From Lutibacter sp. (GTDB lineage: Bacteria > Bacteroidota > Bacteroidia > Flavobacteriales > Flavobacteriaceae), in contig NZ_JAUYUD010000085.1 in assembly GCF_030692605.1 (NCBI RefSeq), positions 1 through 64,000 of the forward strand: a stretch of 64,000 nt of DNA, read 5' to 3'. The notes beneath the pieces were generated by a model. The model made no database searches and had not been told where the DNA came from. It saw only the letters and a program-made list of their open reading frames with translations. The position numbers were made by a program, and so were the translations under genes. Every line of letters starts with the position of its first letter. Position 1 is the first letter of the stretch. Positions 22,711 through 36,560 of this stretch are shown one piece after another.

Positions 22711-22783
22711 ATTAATAGTTTTATTTTAAGATGAAAAACATATTAATTGATTTGCTAAAAGGCTAAAAGAAGTAAATACATTA

Positions 22784-22832
22784 CTGCTTTAGCATTTTTT
22801 TATGAGGTTGCAATCAGTTCAAATTTTTCCTC
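22784..22832 (-). promoter_or_regulatory. SAM-II-type riboswitch upstream of metK
   Basis: Reading the minus strand, a stem GAGG/CCTC encloses the loop containing AATTTGAACTGATTGCAA. It is followed by ATAAAAAAATGCTAAAGCAG. This matches the SAM-II (SAM-alpha) layout: P1 stem, a U/A-rich loop ending ATTGCAA, an A-rich strand and GCTAAA. ACTG in the loop can pair with CAGT just after GCTAAAG to form the pseudoknot. It lies 74 bases before the metK ATG. SAM-II is known from alphaproteobacteria and Bacteroidota. It probably lowers metK expression when SAM is high. Confidence 0.75.
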
Positions 22833-22847
22833 TAATTATTTCGTGTG

Positions 22848-22855: not shown

Positions 22856-22955
22856 TAAAAATTTAAAAATTAAATAGCCATTTAATGCTAAATAATTTAT
22901 AATATTTTTTATAATAGGTTGATATAAGTTCCGACAAAGAGAACTAAAAGTAGAT

Positions 22956-23364
22956 TTGAAATAAAAAAAATAGCAGTAATATTAATAAGTACAGTACTGT
23001 TCTTCAGTTGCTCAAATAGTGATGATATGGAAAATACAGATATGATAAATACTTTGAATCCTGGGTTTTTTGTAATGGGTGACTTTATTGCCGAGTTCAC
23101 CCAACTTCTGGAAAAGCATCGGTTAATTCGGACAAAACAATACTAACTTTTACAAATTTTAAAACTGATAATGGGCCAAAATTACTAGTTTATTTAGCAA
23201 CAGATACCAATTCAACCCAATACATTAATCTAGGCGATTTAAAAGGAATTTCAGGAAACTTTTCCTATACGATTCCTGCCAATACAGATTTCGAAAAATA
23301 TAAAATAGTAAATATTTGGTGTGTGGATTTTTTAGTGAGTTTTGGTACTGCTGAATTAAAATAA
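22956..23364 (+). pseudogene. DM13-domain lipoprotein, frameshifted
   Basis: A coding region in two frames. The first part gives a lipoprotein signal (KIAVILISTVLFFSCSNSDD) and runs to GFFVMGDFIAEFTQ. The second frame continues HPTSGKASVNSDKTILTFTN, then a DM13-like core (GPKLLVYLATD, ISGNFSYTIPA, YKIVNIWCVDF) and a stop at 23364. A single missing base near 23092-23097 breaks the frame, and no in-frame start codon precedes the signal peptide. DM13 domains are predicted redox or electron-transfer domains. It is either a decayed gene or a sequencing error; the two defects favour decay. Confidence 0.7.
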
Positions 23365-23376
23365 TTACTTAATTTT

Positions 23377-23406
23377 TTGGAAATTAAAAAAATGTGTTTA
23401 CATTTG
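23377..23406 (+). promoter_or_regulatory. Promoter of the metY leader
   Basis: TTG at 23377-23379, a 19-base spacer and TACATTTG at 23399-23406 match the Bacteroidota consensus TTG-N19-TAnnTTTG exactly. Transcription should begin near 23413, about 15 bases before the first leader peptide. Confidence 0.75.
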
Positions 23407-23427
23407 CCCTAACAAAACAAGTAAAAA

Positions 23428-23496
23428 ATGAAATTTAATTTAAACATAATGTGTTGTTTGATGTGTAAAATTTACACAGAGGCTACTATTGTTTAA
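23428..23496 (+). CDS. Leader peptide 1 of metY (Cys/Met-rich, 22 aa)
   Basis: A 22-codon frame, MKFNLNIMCCLMCKIYTEAT plus IV, with the cluster Met-Cys-Cys-Leu-Met-Cys at codons 8-13. It lies 15 bases after the predicted transcript start and is followed by an intrinsic terminator. Bases 23477-23482 (CAGAGG), within codons 17-19, are the exact complement of the 5' arm of that terminator (CCTCTG, 23526-23531). A ribosome stalled at the Cys/Met codons would leave CAGAGG free to form an antiterminator; one that reaches the stop would cover it. This is the layout of classical attenuation. No homologue was searched. Confidence 0.75.
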   Translation: MKFNLNIMCCLMCKIYTEATIV

Positions 23497-23525
23497 AATT
23501 TAATAATTTAAAATATATGTAAAAA

Positions 23526-23549
23526 CCTCTGAAATTTCAGAGGTTTTTT
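23526..23549 (+). terminator. Attenuator terminator 1 before metY
   Basis: Perfect palindrome CCTCTGAAATTTCAGAGG (23526-23543) followed by six T. It lies 29 bases after the stop of leader peptide 1. Its 5' arm can pair instead with CAGAGG at 23477-23482. Confidence 0.85.
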
Positions 23550-23570
23550 ATTTTCAAAAAAGAGGATAAA

Positions 23571-23663
23571 ATGGATATTATTTTCAAAAAAAATAAAGTT
23601 AACTGTTGTTGTATGGCAATGCAAATGATGCATAACACAATGCAATGGTATTACCTAAATTGA
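23571..23663 (+). CDS. Leader peptide 2 of metY (Cys/Met-rich, 30 aa)
   Basis: A 30-codon frame with the core NCCCMAMQMMHNTMQW: three consecutive Cys codons, then five Met codons within ten. It is preceded by the purine-rich stretch agaggataaa, a possible ribosome site, and followed by a second terminator. TATTACC at 23649-23655, near the end of the frame, can pair with GGTAATA at 23701-23707, which overlaps the top of the terminator's 5' arm and its loop. This suggests a second attenuation step that reads Cys-tRNA and Met-tRNA supply. Confidence 0.78.
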   Translation: MDIIFKKNKVNCCCMAMQMMHNTMQWYYLN

Positions 23664-23690
23664 ATGGAGTAAATAAATCAATCCTGATTA

Positions 23691-23731
23691 AAGTCCCTTT
23701 GGTAATATCGAAACCAAAGGGACTTTTTTTA
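23691..23731 (+). terminator. Attenuator terminator 2 before metY
   Basis: A 13-bp perfect stem (AAGTCCCTTTGGT, 23691-23703, with its complement at 23713-23725) around a 9-base loop, followed by T7. It is stronger than terminator 1 and lies 40 bases before the metY ATG, so metY expression requires read-through of both. Confidence 0.88.
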
Positions 23732-23770
23732 CTTCAAAAACTTAAAATTTAAACAATAAAAAATAAAAAA

Positions 23771-25060
23771 ATGAGCACACAAAAATTTTCAACAAAAGCG
23801 TTACACGCAGGACACGATACAACTAAAACAGCAGGAACAAGAGCAGTTCCAATTTATCAAACAACTTCGTATGTTTTTAACGATACGGAACATGCTGCAA
23901 ATTTATTTTCATTAAAAGAATTAGGATTTATTTATACACGATTAAACAATCCAACAAATGATATTTTACAGCAGCGTTTGGCTGCCATTGAAGGAGGAAT
24001 AGGAGCAGTGGTTTTTGCTTCAGGAACTTCAGCAATTTCGACAGGATTATTAACGTTATTAAAAGCAGGTGATCATATTGTAGCTTCAAGTAGTTTATAC
24101 GGAGGAACGTTTACCTTGTTAAATGTTACGTTGCCAAGATTAGGAATTACAACTACGTTTGTAGATGCATCAAATCCTGAAAATTTTAAGAATGCTGTTA
24201 AAGATAATACAAGAGCCTTTTTTGTGGAATCTTTAGGAAATCCAAAATTAGATGTGTTAGATTTAGAAGCAATTGCTAAACATTCTAAAGCAGCTGGAGT
24301 GCCATTTATTGTCGACAATACTGTTGCAAGTCCGGCTTTATTAAACCCAATAAAACATGGGGCAAATTTGGTGATTCATTCATTAACAAAATATATTGGC
24401 GGACAAGGAAATTCGTTAGGTGGTGCTATTATTGATGCGGGAACTTTTGATTGGACAAATGGAAAATTTCCAGAGTTTACAGAACCTTCTGCTGGTTATC
24501 ACGGACTTGTTTACAGTGAAGCTTTAGGTGCTGCAGCTTTTATATTTAAATTAATTTTAGAAGGATTACGAGATTTTGGTGGCGCTTTAAGTCCATTCAA
24601 TGCATTTCAAATTATTCAAGGTTTAGAAACTTTACCAGTTCGTATCAAACAACATAGCGCAAATGCCTTGGAATTAGCGCATTGGTTAGAAAGCAGAGAA
24701 GAAGTAGCTTGGGTAAATTACCCTGGGTTAGAAAGTAGCAAATACAATACTTTGGCGAAAAAGTATTTACCTAATGGGCAAAGCGGATTAGTTACTTTCG
24801 GCGTAAAAGATGGTTTTGAGGCAGCTAAAAAAGTGACAGATGCGACTCAACTATTTTCGCTACTGGCAAATATAGGTGACACAAAATCTTTAATTATTCA
24901 TCCAGCAAGTACCACGCATCAACAATTAAGTGTTGAGCAGCAATCAGCTGCAGGTGTAACTCAAGATTTAATCAGACTTTCTGTTGGGCTCGAAGATATT
25001 GATGATTTAAAGCAAGATTTACAAGAGGCTTTTAAAAATGTTAGAGAATTAGAGAATTAA
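23771..25060 (+). CDS. metY: O-acetylhomoserine sulfhydrylase
   Basis: A Cys/Met-metabolism PLP enzyme of 429 residues. It makes homocysteine from O-acetylhomoserine and sulfide (or methionine from methanethiol). The PLP lysine is in VIHSLTKYIGGQGNSLGG, and the FASGTSAISTGLLTLL and GYHGLVYSEALGAAAF blocks are typical of the MetY branch, which is longer than MetB/MetZ. The 5' region holds two tandem Cys/Met attenuators. MetX, which supplies its substrate, follows downstream behind a SAM-I riboswitch. Confidence 0.92.
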   Translation: MSTQKFSTKALHAGHDTTKTAGTRAVPIYQTTSYVFNDTEHAANLFSLKELGFIYTRLNNPTNDILQQRLAAIEGGIGAVVFASGTSAISTGLLTLLKAGDHIVASSSLYGGTFTLLNVTLPRLGITTTFVDASNPENFKNAVKDNTRAFFVESLGNPKLDVLDLEAIAKHSKAAGVPFIVDNTVASPALLNPIKHGANLVIHSLTKYIGGQGNSLGGAIIDAGTFDWTNGKFPEFTEPSAGYHGLVYSEALGAAAFIFKLILEGLRDFGGALSPFNAFQIIQGLETLPVRIKQHSANALELAHWLESREEVAWVNYPGLESSKYNTLAKKYLPNGQSGLVTFGVKDGFEAAKKVTDATQLFSLLANIGDTKSLIIHPASTTHQQLSVEQQSAAGVTQDLIRLSVGLEDIDDLKQDLQEAFKNVRELEN

Positions 25061-25136
25061 ATTTTGAAGAAAAGTATTGTGAGAGAAATTATTTAAACGT
25101 TAATTTGCCACTTAGTTCATAAACTTATTGACTATT

Positions 25137-25234
25137 GTTATCAAGAAAGGCAGAGGGATTAGACCCATTGAAGCCTTAGCAACCCTTTATATTGTAAAGA
25201 AGGTGCTAAATTCTACCCATTTTGGATAGATAAC
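25137..25234 (+). promoter_or_regulatory. SAM-I (S-box) riboswitch upstream of metX-thrA
   Basis: P1 is formed by GTTATC (25137-25142) and GATAAC (25229-25234). Between them are the S-box core AGAAAGGCAGAGGGATTAGA, then CCATTGAAGCCTTAGCAACC and AAGGTGCTAAATTCTACCC. The expression platform is not a clear U-tract terminator: an AACTAA/TTAGTT hairpin follows at about 25232-25251, so control could be translational. It lies 104 bases before the gene. Confidence 0.9.
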
Positions 25235-25337
25235 TAAACGTAATTACTTAGTTGTAATTTCTGCCATTTCTCATAACACTATTTTTTAAGAATTAACAAG
25301 CCAAAAATTTGATTATTGATCAATTATATTGTAAAAA

Positions 25338-28300
25338 ATGAGTAAGCTTAAACATATAAACATTGCCAGTTTTATTCCTGAAAAAGGAATCAATAGTCAG
25401 GAAATTAACCTCTCGTACCAACTTTTTGGAAGAGAATTACATACAGCACCTATAGTTTTGGTTAATCACGCCCTAACAGGAAACAGCAATGTAGCTGGTA
25501 ATAATGGTTGGTGGCAAGATTTGGTAGGTAATAATAAAGTAATAGATACTGAACAATATACCATTTTATCGTTTAATATCCCTGGCAATGGATTTGATGG
25601 TTTTGTAGTAGATAATTACAAAGATTTTGTTGCTAGAGATATTGCAAAACTTTTTTTAATAGGTTTACAGGAACTCCAAATAAATGAATTATTTGCAATT
25701 ATTGGTGGCTCATTAGGTGGTGGAATTGCTTGGGAAATGGCAGTTTTAAACCCGCCTATTACAAAGCATTTAATTGCAGTTGCAACCGATTGGAAATCGA
25801 CCGATTGGTTAATTGCAAATTGTCAAATTCAAGAACAATTTTTATCGAACTCTTGTAATCCTGTGCACGATGCGCGTATGCATGCGATGTTGTGTTACAG
25901 AACTCCTGAATCGTTTAAAGAAAGATTTCAGAGGTCAAAAAACGAGGAGTTAGAAATTTTTAGTGTAGAAAGTTGGTTGTTGCATCACGGTAAAAAATTA
26001 CAAGAACGTTTTCAATTATCTGCGTATAAATTAATGAATCAATTATTAAAAACAATTGATGTAACCACAGGAAGAGAAGCGACCATTTTAGATACAATAA
26101 AAGCAAGTATTCATATCATTGGCGTAGATTCTGACCTGTTTTTTTCTGCTGAAGAAAATAAAGAAACACACAAACACTTGGCTTTAACAAATCCAAAAGT
26201 TACTTATAACGAAATAAATTCGGTTCACGGGCATGATGCTTTTTTAATGGAATATGAACAATTAGAAAAAATTATAGAACCAATATTTAAACAGAGTTCT
26301 AAAAAAAATAAGATGAAAGTAGTAAAATTTGGAGGAAAATCATTAGCAAATGGTATTGGAATAGAAAGTTCATTAAAAATCATTTCTAATAATATAAAAA
26401 AGGGTGAAAAAATCACAGTTGTTGTTTCTGCAAGAGGTGAAACAACAGATCATTTGGAATCTATTTTAGAAAAAGCAAAAAATAGTTTACCCTATATTGA
26501 AGAGTTTGAAGCGCTAAAAAAATATCAACTAGAAGTTGATGAAACGGCAAATTTATCTGTTGAATTTCAATTGCTTGATGAAATTTTTAGAGGGGTAAAT
26601 TTGTTAGGAGATTATACTCCAAAAGTGAAAGACCAAGTTTTGGCCCAAGGCGAAATTTTATCAGGAAAAACAATTACTCATTTGTTAAATAAACAGGGGG
26701 TAAAAGCAAATTTTGTAGATTCTCGCACCTTATTAAAAACCAATAACCAGTTTGGAAAAGCATTACTTTTTGAAAGTATTTCAGAAGAAAATGTAATTGA
26801 GCACTACAGAAAAAATAATGGGGATGTAACTCAAATTATTACTGGTTTTATTGCATCAAATTTAAACGGGGAAACCACTACTTTGGGGAGAAATGGAAGT
26901 AATTATACAGCTTCTTTATTAGCAAATTATTTAAATGCAGCGGAATTTCAAAATTATACGCACGTAAGCGGAATTTATACTGCAGATCCTGCTTTGGTTG
27001 AGAACTCCAAAAAAATCGAGAAGCTTTCCTATCAGGAAGCCAATGAAATGGCAAATTTTGGAGCCAATATTTTACATGCGAAAACAATTATACCTTTAAT
27101 TGAAAAAAATATTCCACTTAGAATCTTAAATACTTTCGACCCAGATAATCCAGGAACTTTAATTGGTTCAGAATCAGAAATAGGAGGGATAAAATCATTG
27201 TCGGTTGATGAAGATGTTGCTTTGGTGAATTTAATTGGGCGTGGTTTATTAGGGAAAGTTGGTGTAGATGGACGAATTTTTACAGCATTAGGAAAAGAAA
27301 ATATTAGCGTAAGCATTATTTCCCAAGGTTCATCGGAAAGAGGAATTGGATTTATTGTGGATGCTAAAAATGGGTATAAGGCAAAAATAGTATTGGAAAA
27401 TGAGTTTAAAAGTGAATTTGAAAGTAAAGATGTAAGTCAGATTTATGTTACCGAAAAAGTTTCAGTAATTTCAATTATTGGACAAAGTCTTCATTCTTTT
27501 AATCAACCTTACAGTGCATTAATTAAAAATAATATTACACCAATTTTAATCAATAATACGGTAACAGGAGAAAATGTTTGTTTGGTTGTAAAACAATCGG
27601 ATCTTCATAAAGCGGTTAATGTAATTCACGGTGAAATTTTTGGAATTTCTAAAAATATTAACATCGCTATTTTTGGGAAAGGATTGGTTGGTGGAACACT
27701 AATTGAGCAACTATTAAAAAGTAAGGAGAATATAATTAAACGAAAAAACATAAATCTTAATGTATTTGCTATTGCAAATTCTTCAAAAGTTTTGCTGAAT
27801 AAAAATGGTGTTTCCATAAAATGGAAGAAAGAATTAGAAAAAAGTGAAATAAATAATAATATTCAAAATATTATTGATTTTGCAGAAAAAAACCACTTAG
27901 AAAACTTAATTGCAATAGATAATACTTCAAGCGGTGAGTTTGTAAAAAATTATATTGATTTAGTTGAAAACGGCTTCGATTTAGTTTCTTCAAATAAAAT
28001 AGCCAATACGTTAAGTTATTCATTTTATAATCAATTGAGAGGTAAATTAAAGGAGCATAAAAAAACATATTTATACGAAACTAATGTTGGTGCAGGCTTA
28101 CCATTAATAGACACTATAAAGTTATTGCACGATTCTGGGGAAAATATTACACGAATTAGAGGTGTTTTTTCTGGTTCTTTAAGTTATTTGTTTAATAATT
28201 ATTCGATTCAAAATAGACCATTTAGTGAGGTTTTACAGGAAGCAATAGATAGTGGATTTACGGAACCAGATCCGAGAGAAGATTTATGTGGTAATGATGT

Positions 28301-28727
28301 TGGTCGCAAATTATTAATTTTAGCCAGAGAACTTGATTTACAAAATGAATTTGAGGATGTAATTATTGAAAATTTAATTCCAACAAATTTACAGGAAGGT
28401 TCTATAAATCAGTTTTTAAATAAATTAGATAAAATGAATACCTTTTATCAAAATATAAAAGACAATCAAAAAGACAATCATGTGTTACGTTACATAGGCG
28501 ATTTGTCTGGAAATTTGCAAGAAGACAAAGGGATTTTAGAAGTAAAATTAATTTCTGTTTCAGCAAATAGTGCTTTAGGGCAAATACAAGGAGCTGATGC
28601 TATTTTTGAAATATTTACAGAATCGTATGGAGAAAAACCAATTGTTATTCAAGGTGCTGGAGCAGGAGCTTCAGTAACAGCAAGAGGTGTTTTTGGAGAT
28701 ATTTTACGATTAGCGCAGAAAAATTAG
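25338..28727 (+). CDS. metX-thrA: Trifunctional homoserine O-acetyltransferase / aspartokinase / homoserine dehydrogenase
   Basis: One 1129-residue frame joins three enzymes of methionine and threonine synthesis. Residues 1-325 are MetX-like alpha/beta hydrolase: nucleophile in IIGGSLGGGIAWE, acid in GVDSDLFF, His in HGHDAFL. Residues 326 to about 770 are aspartokinase (KVVKFGGKSLAN, TTLGRNGSNYTA) with ACT repeats. From about 772 it is homoserine dehydrogenase (IAIFGKGLVGGTL, SSNKIANTLSYSFY). The MetX/kinase junction lies in an A8 tract at 26301-26308. With seven A the frame would end in TGA overlapping the kinase ATG at 26313. A SAM-I riboswitch precedes it. Confidence 0.9.
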   Translation: MSKLKHINIASFIPEKGINSQEINLSYQLFGRELHTAPIVLVNHALTGNSNVAGNNGWWQDLVGNNKVIDTEQYTILSFNIPGNGFDGFVVDNYKDFVARDIAKLFLIGLQELQINELFAIIGGSLGGGIAWEMAVLNPPITKHLIAVATDWKSTDWLIANCQIQEQFLSNSCNPVHDARMHAMLCYRTPESFKERFQRSKNEELEIFSVESWLLHHGKKLQERFQLSAYKLMNQLLKTIDVTTGREATILDTIKASIHIIGVDSDLFFSAEENKETHKHLALTNPKVTYNEINSVHGHDAFLMEYEQLEKIIEPIFKQSSKKNKMKVVKFGGKSLANGIGIESSLKIISNNIKKGEKITVVVSARGETTDHLESILEKAKNSLPYIEEFEALKKYQLEVDETANLSVEFQLLDEIFRGVNLLGDYTPKVKDQVLAQGEILSGKTITHLLNKQGVKANFVDSRTLLKTNNQFGKALLFESISEENVIEHYRKNNGDVTQIITGFIASNLNGETTTLGRNGSNYTASLLANYLNAAEFQNYTHVSGIYTADPALVENSKKIEKLSYQEANEMANFGANILHAKTIIPLIEKNIPLRILNTFDPDNPGTLIGSESEIGGIKSLSVDEDVALVNLIGRGLLGKVGVDGRIFTALGKENISVSIISQGSSERGIGFIVDAKNGYKAKIVLENEFKSEFESKDVSQIYVTEKVSVISIIGQSLHSFNQPYSALIKNNITPILINNTVTGENVCLVVKQSDLHKAVNVIHGEIFGISKNINIAIFGKGLVGGTLIEQLLKSKENIIKRKNINLNVFAIANSSKVLLNKNGVSIKWKKELEKSEINNNIQNIIDFAEKNHLENLIAIDNTSSGEFVKNYIDLVENGFDLVSSNKIANTLSYSFYNQLRGKLKEHKKTYLYETNVGAGLPLIDTIKLLHDSGENITRIRGVFSGSLSYLFNNYSIQNRPFSEVLQEAIDSGFTEPDPREDLCGNDVGRKLLILARELDLQNEFEDVIIENLIPTNLQEGSINQFLNKLDKMNTFYQNIKDNQKDNHVLRYIGDLSGNLQEDKGILEVKLISVSANSALGQIQGADAIFEIFTESYGEKPIVIQGAGAGASVTARGVFGDILRLAQKN

Positions 28728-34469: not shown

Positions 34470-36560
34470 ATGCAAAGTTTTAGAACCGAGATCGAAAATC
34501 CGATCGTCGAAAAGGATATTATTGACTTAGAAAATAAAATAAGTCTTTATTACGAAGGTAAAATTGACGAACAACGTTTCAGAAGTTTACGTTTAGCGCG
34601 TGGTGTTTATGGCCAACGTCAGTTTGGTGTACAAATGATTCGTATTAAATTACCTTACGGAAAATTAACAAGCGAACAGTTGCACAGAATTGCAAATGTT
34701 TCTGATGAATATTCTAGAGGAAGATTGCACATTACTACCCGACAAGATATTCAAATTCATCATGTAAGTTTAGATAGAACCCCTGAACTTTGGGCCGAAT
34801 TAGAAAAGGATAATATTACCTTACGTGAAGCTTGTGGAAATGCCGTAAGAAACGTGACAGCTAGTGAAACTGCAGGAATTGATCGAAATGAGCCATTTGA
34901 TGTTTCACCGTATGCACATGCCGTTTTCGAATTCTTTTTACGTAATCCAATTTGCCAGGAATTAGGACGAAAATTTAAAATTTCGTTTTCTGGAACCGAT
35001 GAAGATACAGCATTGAGTTTTATGCACGATTTGGGTTTTATTGCTAAAATTGAAAATGATGTAGTTGGTTTTAAAATAATGATTGGTGGAGGTTTAGGCT
35101 CACAAGCTCGTTTGGCAGATACTTTATTCGAATTTGTTGATGCTGCTAAAATTATTCCTGTTACCGAAGCTGTTTTACGCGTTTTCGATAGATTTGGAGA
35201 AAGAACTAAAAGAGCCAGAGCTCGTTTAAAATTTTTAGTAAAAGAAATTGGATTTGATGCATTTGTGCATTTGGTAGAAGAGGAACAAAAAGCGATTTCA
35301 AATTCAACCTATAAAATTGATGTTTCTAAATTTGAAAATGAAATTAATCTTCCAGTATTTGAAACTCCTGAAGTACTACTTAAAGATGAAAATCAATTCA
35401 ACCTTTGGAAAAATTCAAATGTAATTCCACAAAAACAACAAGGATTTGTTGCAATTGGTATTAAAGTTCATTTAGGTGATTTTTATACTGATAAAGCTCG
35501 ATTGTTGGCAGATTTAGTCAAAAAATATACAGGAAATGACATTCGATTAACATTAAGACAAAATATTTTAATTCGTCATGTGAAAGAGGAATTATTACCT
35601 TTTTTTTATGTTGAACTGAATAAATTAGGATTTGCGGAAATAGGGTATAATAGTACGTTGGATATTACTTCTTGTCCAGGAACCGATACGTGTAATTTAG
35701 GAATTGCAAGTAGTACCGGAATTACTACTGAATTAGAAAGAGTTTTAAAAACTGAATTTTCACAGTACGCAAATAATAAAGATATTACCATAAAAATTAG
35801 TGGATGTATGAACAGTTGTGGACAGCATTCAATGGCTCATATTGGTTTTCAAGGAATGACTATAAAATCAGGCAAATTGGTTGCACCTGCATTGCAGGTG
35901 TTATTAGGAGGAGGAATTTTAGGAAATGGTGAAGGAAGAATTTCAGATAAGGTAATTAAGATTCCAAGTAAAAGAGGGCCCGAAGCATTAAGAACGATAT
36001 TAAATGATTACCAATCAAAAGCACTAGTTGAAGAATCATTTTTGAATTATTACGACCGCCAAGGTGAAATGTATTTTTATAATTTACTAAAATCGTTAAG
36101 CAACTCAACAAACTTAGTGCAAAGCGATTTTATAGATTGGGGTGCTGAGGAACAATTTGAAATGGCAGTTGGCGTTGGAGAATGTGCAGGTGTTGTAATC
36201 GATTTAATTGCAACCTTATTATTGGATAGTGAAGAAAAATTGGAAAACGCATCAGAATCATTGAAGTTAAATCAATATTCAGATAGTATTTATTATTCCT
36301 ATACAAGTATCGTAAATACAGCAAAAGCATTATTAATTTCAGAAGGGAAAAATACCAATTCACAGGCTGTTATTATATCAGATTTTGAGGAATATTTTGG
36401 GTCTAGAATTGAGTTGGAAAGTTCATTTTCAGATTTTATATACCAGATTCAAAAGAATGAACCAACTAAAGAATTTGCTCAAAAGTATTTAGCCGATGCC
36501 CATCGATTTTATAAAAAAGCAACTGAATATAGATTAAATGCACTTACTAATGAATCCTAA
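34470..36560 (+). CDS. Siroheme sulfite/nitrite reductase with a C-terminal HEPN-like extension
   Basis: The first 550 residues are a ferredoxin-type sulfite/nitrite reductase. Siroheme/4Fe-4S ligands are in TSCPGTDTCNLG (about residue 402) and SGCMNSCGQHS (about 445), with the basic substrate-site RGRLHITTRQDIQIHH. Context (cys genes and siroheme synthesis) points to sulfite. About 140 further residues follow from position 555: helical, starting FEMAVGVGECAG, with YSDSIYYSYTSIVNTAKALL and ending AHRFYKKATEYRLNAL. They resemble HEPN helical bundles, not any reductase partner domain. The role of the extension is unknown. Confidence 0.85.
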   Translation: MQSFRTEIENPIVEKDIIDLENKISLYYEGKIDEQRFRSLRLARGVYGQRQFGVQMIRIKLPYGKLTSEQLHRIANVSDEYSRGRLHITTRQDIQIHHVSLDRTPELWAELEKDNITLREACGNAVRNVTASETAGIDRNEPFDVSPYAHAVFEFFLRNPICQELGRKFKISFSGTDEDTALSFMHDLGFIAKIENDVVGFKIMIGGGLGSQARLADTLFEFVDAAKIIPVTEAVLRVFDRFGERTKRARARLKFLVKEIGFDAFVHLVEEEQKAISNSTYKIDVSKFENEINLPVFETPEVLLKDENQFNLWKNSNVIPQKQQGFVAIGIKVHLGDFYTDKARLLADLVKKYTGNDIRLTLRQNILIRHVKEELLPFFYVELNKLGFAEIGYNSTLDITSCPGTDTCNLGIASSTGITTELERVLKTEFSQYANNKDITIKISGCMNSCGQHSMAHIGFQGMTIKSGKLVAPALQVLLGGGILGNGEGRISDKVIKIPSKRGPEALRTILNDYQSKALVEESFLNYYDRQGEMYFYNLLKSLSNSTNLVQSDFIDWGAEEQFEMAVGVGECAGVVIDLIATLLLDSEEKLENASESLKLNQYSDSIYYSYTSIVNTAKALLISEGKNTNSQAVIISDFEEYFGSRIELESSFSDFIYQIQKNEPTKEFAQKYLADAHRFYKKATEYRLNALTNES

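Follow-up and report, generated by a model that had tools for sequence, protein, structure and literature searches.

In the 64,000-nucleotide stretch of DNA analysed here (the window), metY is very probably preceded by two ribosome-mediated transcription attenuators in series, which would be opened by starvation for methionine and, secondarily, for cysteine. As judged from its anatomy, the mechanism is that of classical attenuation, doubled in series, and metY is probably the gene regulated by both units. The host is a marine Lutibacter-like genome, with a MetY that is 92–94% identical to those of four loci named Lutibacter (L001–L004).

Leader and terminator units upstream of metY

In positions 23377–23770 of the window, a promoter is followed by leader 1 with its terminator and then by leader 2 with terminator 2; metY comes next. 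The features are listed below, together with two riboswitches of the window.

22779–22838, − strand: SAM-II riboswitch (RF01726), at the Rfam gathering score, before metK
23377–23406, + strand: promoter of the Bacteroidota type, TTG (23377–23379), 19-nt spacer and TACATTTG (23399–23406); from sequence and homologous units
23428–23496, + strand: leader peptide 1, 22 codons, MKFNLNIMCCLMCKIYTEATIV; 43 model matches
23462–23478, + strand: protector hairpin of unit 1, TGTGTAA / TTACACA with a 3-nt loop; fold of −5.2 kcal/mol
23477–23482, + strand: antiterminator 5' strand of unit 1, CAGAGG, within leader 1; complementary to CCTCTG at 23526–23531
23521–23548, + strand: terminator 1, hairpin of 12 pairs, −15.1 kcal/mol, with T6 at 23544–23549
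23571–23663, + strand: leader peptide 2, 30 codons, MDIIFKKNKVNCCCMAMQMMHNTMQWYYLN; 34 model matches
23649–23655, + strand: antiterminator 5' strand of unit 2, TATTACC; complementary to GGTAATA at 23701–23707
23690–23726, + strand: terminator 2, hairpin of 14 pairs, −22.4 kcal/mol, with T7 at 23724–23730
23771–25060, + strand: metY, O-acetylhomoserine aminocarboxypropyltransferase (TIGR01326, 630.7 bits, cut-off 495.1)
25135–25236, + strand: SAM-I riboswitch (RF00162), at the Rfam gathering score, before the gene following metY

The promoter, the leaders, the terminators with their T6 and T7 runs and the complementarity of both antiterminator strands were all found where the original prediction had placed them. 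Terminator 2 was likewise present with its T7, and its stem comprised 14 pairs by folding where 13 had been given. The TTG–N19–TACATTTG arrangement follows the Bacteroidota promoter consensus. Of 42 homologous units, 27 had the motif TTG-N17..21-TAnnTTTG immediately 5' of leader 1, a frequency to be compared with 0.3% among shuffled sequences; the 42 units are those of the 43 unit 1 rows described below, the remaining row being too short. The protector hairpin of unit 1 spans the last Met and Cys codons of the leader and overlaps the first bases of the antiterminator strand. This hairpin and the two riboswitches had been overlooked in the original prediction. For unit 2, the window fold gave no clear protector hairpin (−1.6 kcal/mol).

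Both strands of the 64 kb were scanned for units, defined as an ATG ORF of 12–60 codons with at least four Cys or Met residues within eight and a strong terminator behind it. Exactly two units were found, those before metY, and none of 5000 dinucleotide shuffles of 23377–23770 gave even one leader/terminator unit; chance occurrence was rejected on these grounds. No Rfam family reached its gathering score within 23377–23770, T-box, the SAM riboswitches RF00162 and RF01726 and the Bacteroid-trp motif (RF01692), which is a Trp attenuator, included. Rfam matches to NsiR1, PyrR and leader entries fell far below their own gathering scores and were rejected.

When the RNA was folded from 23467 with the 3' arm of the terminator absent, antiterminator 1 was part of the predicted fold (−12.0 kcal/mol), and folding from 23645, again with the 3' arm absent, gave a predicted fold with antiterminator 2 (−10.0 kcal/mol). 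In the full-length RNA the terminators were the predicted minimum, and the switch would therefore have to be kinetic.

Between metK and the attenuators lies a small gene (22940–23364), DM13-like by eye, which is frameshifted near 23095 relative to an open frame in L001.

Conservation of the alternative helices

Both units were found at 12 of 80 named metY loci, namely Lutibacter L001–L004, the Flavobacteriaceae MAGs L071 and L080, Flavobacterium L073–L076 and L078, and Kordia L079. Covariance models R1 (unit 1) and R2 (unit 2) were built from these 12 loci and the window, and served to search 397 Flavobacteriaceae genomes. The resulting alignment of unit 1 has 43 rows and was fitted to the protector and terminator helices, with the antiterminator outside the model; that of unit 2 has 34 rows.

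In unit 1, the protector and terminator helices together were paired in 93.2% of cells, with changes on both sides at 13 of 19 pairs (shuffled mean 7.0), and none of 500 shuffles, in which kinship between rows is ignored here and below, reached any of the five measures used. Taken separately, the protector helix was 93.8% paired with both-side changes at three of five pairs (its inner two pairs being 79.1% paired), and the terminator 1 stem was 95.3% paired with both-side changes at eight of 12 pairs.

Antiterminator 1 was paired in 87.3% of cells, against 34–45% when the strands were slid. It had 17 double-changed cells against 4.6 in shuffles (0/500 as high), confined to two positions, so that they may represent few events; a slide of +2 also gave 13 double-changed cells, at 44.8% paired. 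The numbers of double-changed pairs (2) and of pair types (7) were not above shuffles (386/500 and 280/500 as high). Pairing failed at the outermost positions in 15 and 17 of the 43 rows, and at least six rows fitted poorly or were misaligned in this region (L003, L103, L115, L117, L137 and the second copy of L078). By eye, the leader codons lying over the antiterminator covaried with the terminator arm, as CAGAGG/CCTCTG, CAGCG/CGCTG, CAAGGG/CCCTTG and GCAGGG/CCCTGC.

In unit 2, terminator 2 was 96.6% paired, with both-side changes at six of 13 pairs (27/500 shuffles as high). The ten pairs of antiterminator 2 were paired in 88.5% of cells and had a covariation score of 0.170 against 0.113 in shuffles (0/500 as high). 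Only five cells were double-changed (7/500 as high); double-changed pairs numbered 2 (91/500 as high) and pair types 8 (420/500 as high). The alternative pairing is thus kept in relatives, with few independent double changes, and this conservation supports the proposal of serial leader-peptide attenuators with sulfur amino-acid codons before metY.

Control codons and their spacing

Each leader of the window contains both Met and Cys codons (MCCLMC and a CCC run, respectively). Over the 43 rows of unit 1, the leader frame contained 172 ATG codons and the two remaining frames 7 and 1; Cys codons were not enriched in the leader frame (71 against 99 and 47). For the 34 rows of unit 2 the corresponding counts, leader frame first, were 219, 3 and 15 for ATG and 118, 112 and 6 for Cys codons.

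Leaders were also collected with a script that asked for Cys or Met, neither being preferred. The set comprises 68 leaders from 39 loci (37 metY, one MetX-like gene and one PLP enzyme) and omits L090 (the same as L003), L093 (the window), L100 (insertion) and L113 (contig end). The script misses some units found by the models (unit 1 of L101, unit 2 of L116 and L117) and in certain cases, L103, L105 and L109 among them, takes an upstream ATG as the leader start. At least two internal Met codons were present in all 68 leaders, and nine leaders contained no Cys; by locus, Cys was absent from unit 1 of L094, L098, L099, L102, L111, L112 and L114 and from unit 2 of L115. Codon content accordingly marks Met as the putative constant signal across relatives, and Cys as a frequent second one.

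Measured from its first base, the last in-frame Met codon of unit 1 precedes the antiterminator by 15–16 nt in 35 of the 43 rows, by 19 nt in seven and by 29 nt in one. With this codon in the A site, the leading edge of a ribosome should lie just short of the antiterminator. From the start of the antiterminator to the leader stop codon the median distance was 17 nt. The residue after the last Met was Trp in 19 rows, Cys in 18, Ser in three, Pro in two and Arg in one; since Trp is about as frequent as Cys at this position, the codon is probably set by the protector hairpin and not by sensing. In 18 of the 34 rows of unit 2, just 9 nt separate the last Met from the antiterminator. This gap is shorter than a simple footprint picture wants, and earlier Met codons would therefore be the useful stall sites.

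Proposed mechanism and alternative readings

Sequence comparison shows the two units, their alternative helices, the in-frame Met codons with their distance to the antiterminator, and the association with genes of sulfur amino-acid metabolism. From this arrangement we infer leader translation, stalling, termination and read-through, as well as a reason for the presence of two units. On each leader a ribosome would trail RNA polymerase. With charged Met-tRNA (and Cys-tRNA) plentiful, the ribosome would reach the stop codon and mask the antiterminator strand, and the terminator would form. With Met short (or Cys, in leaders that contain it), the ribosome would stall on the Met or Cys codons and the protector hairpin would be opened; the antiterminator strand, free just past the leading edge, would then pair with the 5' arm of the terminator and polymerase would continue. 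Expression of metY would need read-through at both terminators. Because both leaders would sense the same starvation, their effects would be expected to multiply, so that metY is shut off more tightly and responds more steeply; no AND function over two amino acids would be computed.

Such an AND gate, under which full expression of metY requires a shortage of charged Cys-tRNA as well as of charged Met-tRNA, had been the reading of the original prediction, and the window does have two serial units, each with Cys and Met codons. It is, however, this very mixture that speaks against the gate: since each leader holds both kinds of codon, lack of just one of the two amino acids could be enough for stalling in leader 1 or leader 2 alike. 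Because Met is constant in all 68 leaders counted and nine of them have no Cys, with Cys-free examples of both units, the gate is very unlikely and a Met-first signal was put in its place. A main signal from cysteine, with the Met codons secondary, would be in keeping with the MCCLMC and CCC runs of the window, with the Cys-run leaders before sulfite reductase in relatives (see below) and with the description of TIGR01326, which allows family members as cysteine synthases. The same Cys-free leaders, the lack of any leader among the 68 without internal Met, and the frame counts of unit 1, in which Met is enriched and Cys is not, make this reading very unlikely.

Short conserved peptides can also act as arrest peptides that sense a small molecule. 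Were the leaders of this kind, they would respond to SAM or methionine in the exit tunnel and not to codon starvation, and the finding of a SAM riboswitch before the same gene elsewhere would suit such a role. Their sequences vary widely outside Met and Cys, the residue after the last Met differs between rows (C, W, S, P or R), and the C-terminal codons change jointly with the RNA pairing, all of which renders arrest peptides highly improbable. Extremely improbable, finally, is control at the level of translation, or by constitutive terminators that do not switch: terminator 2 with its T-run stops at 23730, 40 nt 5' of the metY start, which is left free, and while both terminators are predicted to be strong, the antiterminators and the Met spacing are conserved along with them.

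Distribution of the units and possible exchange with SAM-I riboswitches

At E ≤ 1e-6, R1 matched 34 of the 397 family genomes, in 23 genera. At E ≤ 1e-3 it matched 78 genomes, the weaker matches being mostly unrelated where inspected, and only the 34 were used for counts. R2 gave 55 candidate genomes among the 397 at E ≤ 1e-3, counted by threshold. Among the 34 genomes, unit 1 was located directly before metY in 29 and before a MetX-like gene in two (L094/L162 and L149, 70% and 56% identical to the MetX domain of the window). One genome each had unit 1 before a PLP enzyme of Cys/Met metabolism (L114), separated by a TonB-receptor gene from a later unit 2 and metY (L100, L139, L163), and at a contig end (L113). 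Unit 2 (E ≤ 1e-6) accompanied unit 1 (E ≤ 5e-7) in 32 of 42 loci; unit 1 alone was found in some relatives (10 of the 42, with no unit 2 detected). Units 1 and 2 are split by a TonB-dependent receptor gene in L163 (G317), where the receptor was assigned by a protein family search, and in L204 (G568).

The place taken by the attenuators is elsewhere occupied by the SAM-I riboswitch (RF00162), which senses SAM directly: before the same gene, metY, SAM-I was found at 64 of the 80 named loci, attenuators at 12, neither at four (L005, L031, L070 and L044, the last with only 174 nt of upstream sequence) and both at none. The exclusion is not absolute, as G143 has unit 1, then SAM-I, then a MetX-like gene (L162). 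On a MetY tree of 81 rows, made by a quick method, the SAM-I and attenuator states need four changes; the starred branches force at least three changes for the attenuator label, and the direction is not given by the tree. The rows nearest Lutibacter, L005 and L031, have neither element. A point against the attenuator reading is L065, which is named Lutibacter and has SAM-I, though its MetY is only 83% identical and is placed near Tamlana.

In the stretch before metY of L044 (1–174), GGTATTGCC and GGCAATACC were seen, perhaps a relic of unit 2; the contig is short.

Leaders before sulfate-assimilation genes

Sulfite reductase loci, other Bacteroidia included, were drawn from 49 matches listed. 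By script, 16 of the 31 loci had one or more Cys/Met leaders followed by a terminator and 15 had none; two leader/terminator units were present in four. Cys runs such as CCCC recur in these leaders, and the median Cys share was 0.54 before sulfite reductase against 0.33 before metY-type genes (Mann–Whitney p 5e-6, kinship ignored). No Cys/Met leader was found at the sulfite reductase gene of the genome to which the window belongs (34470–36539, L238).

Within the family, tandem Met/Cys leaders were found, via R1, before cysHDN-type genes (L192). Outside the family, five of eight R1 matches (L195–L202) had Met/Cys leaders with terminators, before metY (L198), CysD-like genes (L195, by eye) or sulfite reductase (L200–L202; L200 and L202 by eye), and three had no leader by the script, one of these being before metY (L197). 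An order-wide search with R1 gave further strong matches, mostly in one large genus (g127). A clean split of the codons by pathway was rejected, as one g127 genome (L191, L192) mixes Met and Cys in both kinds of leader; with this exception, the split holds on the whole in the median Cys shares.

Taking the searches together, we lean towards the view that Bacteroidota harbour widespread and undescribed attenuators for sulfur amino acids, often in pairs, which are Met-weighted at metY and metX and Cys-weighted at sulfite reductase and sulfate assimilation, and which have been exchanged repeatedly with SAM-I at metY.

Relation to known systems

Classical ribosome-mediated attenuators are those of the trp, his, leu, ilv, thr and phe operons of Proteobacteria. 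The metY units share with them a leader with control codons, mutually exclusive protector, antiterminator and terminator helices and a biosynthetic gene downstream. They differ in the use of Met with frequent Cys, in comprising two complete serial units and in their occurrence in Bacteroidota. For mgtCBR of Salmonella, two leader ORFs are described in one leader mRNA, one of which senses tRNA charging, and the ORFs respond additively to two distinct signals, ATP and proline (PMC3641672). In contrast, the two metY leaders, each of which has a terminator of its own, appear to have the same sulfur amino acids as signals.

In Flavobacterium psychrophilum, which belongs to the same family as the bacteria with the metY units, strong clues are reported for leader-peptide attenuation before amino-acid biosynthesis operons; conserved 5' elements are named before pheA, hisG, ftsY, acsA, alaS and rimP, and the main text nowhere uses the word methionine (PMC9723704). 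The earlier statement that no tandem Cys/Met attenuator has been described in Bacteroidota needs limits in this respect, leader-peptide attenuation having been reported there in general terms. Short ORFs with Cys codons are described upstream of cysteine-related genes in the cys operons of mycobacteria, for which no conserved terminator hairpin was found (PMC1262725), and uORFC-8-2 before cysS of Rhodobacterales has Cys codons and a U run consistent with a terminator (PMC8632094). Both belong to other phyla, and neither tandem units nor Met codons are described in the portions of these reports that were covered. A Bacteroid-trp motif is included in Table 1 of PMC2864571. For met genes of Xanthomonas, control by the 5'UTR is reported in a paper in whose covered text the word leader is absent (PMC6230763).

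Among the matches listed, drawn mostly from open-access papers, there was no methionine leader-peptide attenuator. If they act as proposed, the metY units would be the first methionyl-tRNA attenuators within the literature searched, and transcription and translation in Bacteroidota would be coupled closely enough for attenuation. Stalled-ribosome attenuation is textbook knowledge in Proteobacteria and thinly documented in Bacteroidota, where a conserved Met leader would offer a direct test of ribosomes closely trailing polymerase. An exchange between SAM-I and twin sensors of tRNA charging at metY would change the molecule sensed, and provides natural pairs for comparison. The serial duplication of one sensor poses the quantitative question of whether the response is steeper than with the single unit 1 of relatives. 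The R1 and R2 covariance models can be used for annotation.

Further matches and gene arrangements

Fourteen weaker R1 matches were inspected (L152–L161 and L165–L168), of which four had relevant leaders and ten were counted as none. L153 is located before metY, L154 before OsmC-like (by eye) and MetX-like genes, and L165 has tandem units before a MetX-like gene; among the ten, L161 has a Met-rich ORF before an unrelated gene. L158 (G373:C1:652716–652855) has an Ile/Val-rich leader, MKNITIIISSIISAIVIIASAEGKL, and a terminator before a gene that is acetolactate-synthase-like by eye, and is a possible ilv attenuator, found via the met model.

In L189 and L190, a further single unit 1 (MMLFVCNMCCMMWKNPQS...) was present some 7–8 kb before the tandem units of metY, at the head of a cluster that includes a cysteine-synthase-like PLP enzyme and, by eye, further sulfur genes. 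Flavobacterium sp. AED (L078, 6624–6973, and L203) has a second tandem pair, which is diverged and poorer in Met codons; downstream of it lie a MetX-like gene, with 62% identity to the MetX domain of the window, and an aspartokinase-like ORF. In the window, behind the SAM-I riboswitch at 25135–25236, a single ORF of 1129 aa (25338–28727) combines a MetX-like domain with a bifunctional aspartokinase/homoserine dehydrogenase. Unlike this fused ORF, the MetX-like and aspartokinase-like ORFs (by eye) of L149 and L165 are separate.
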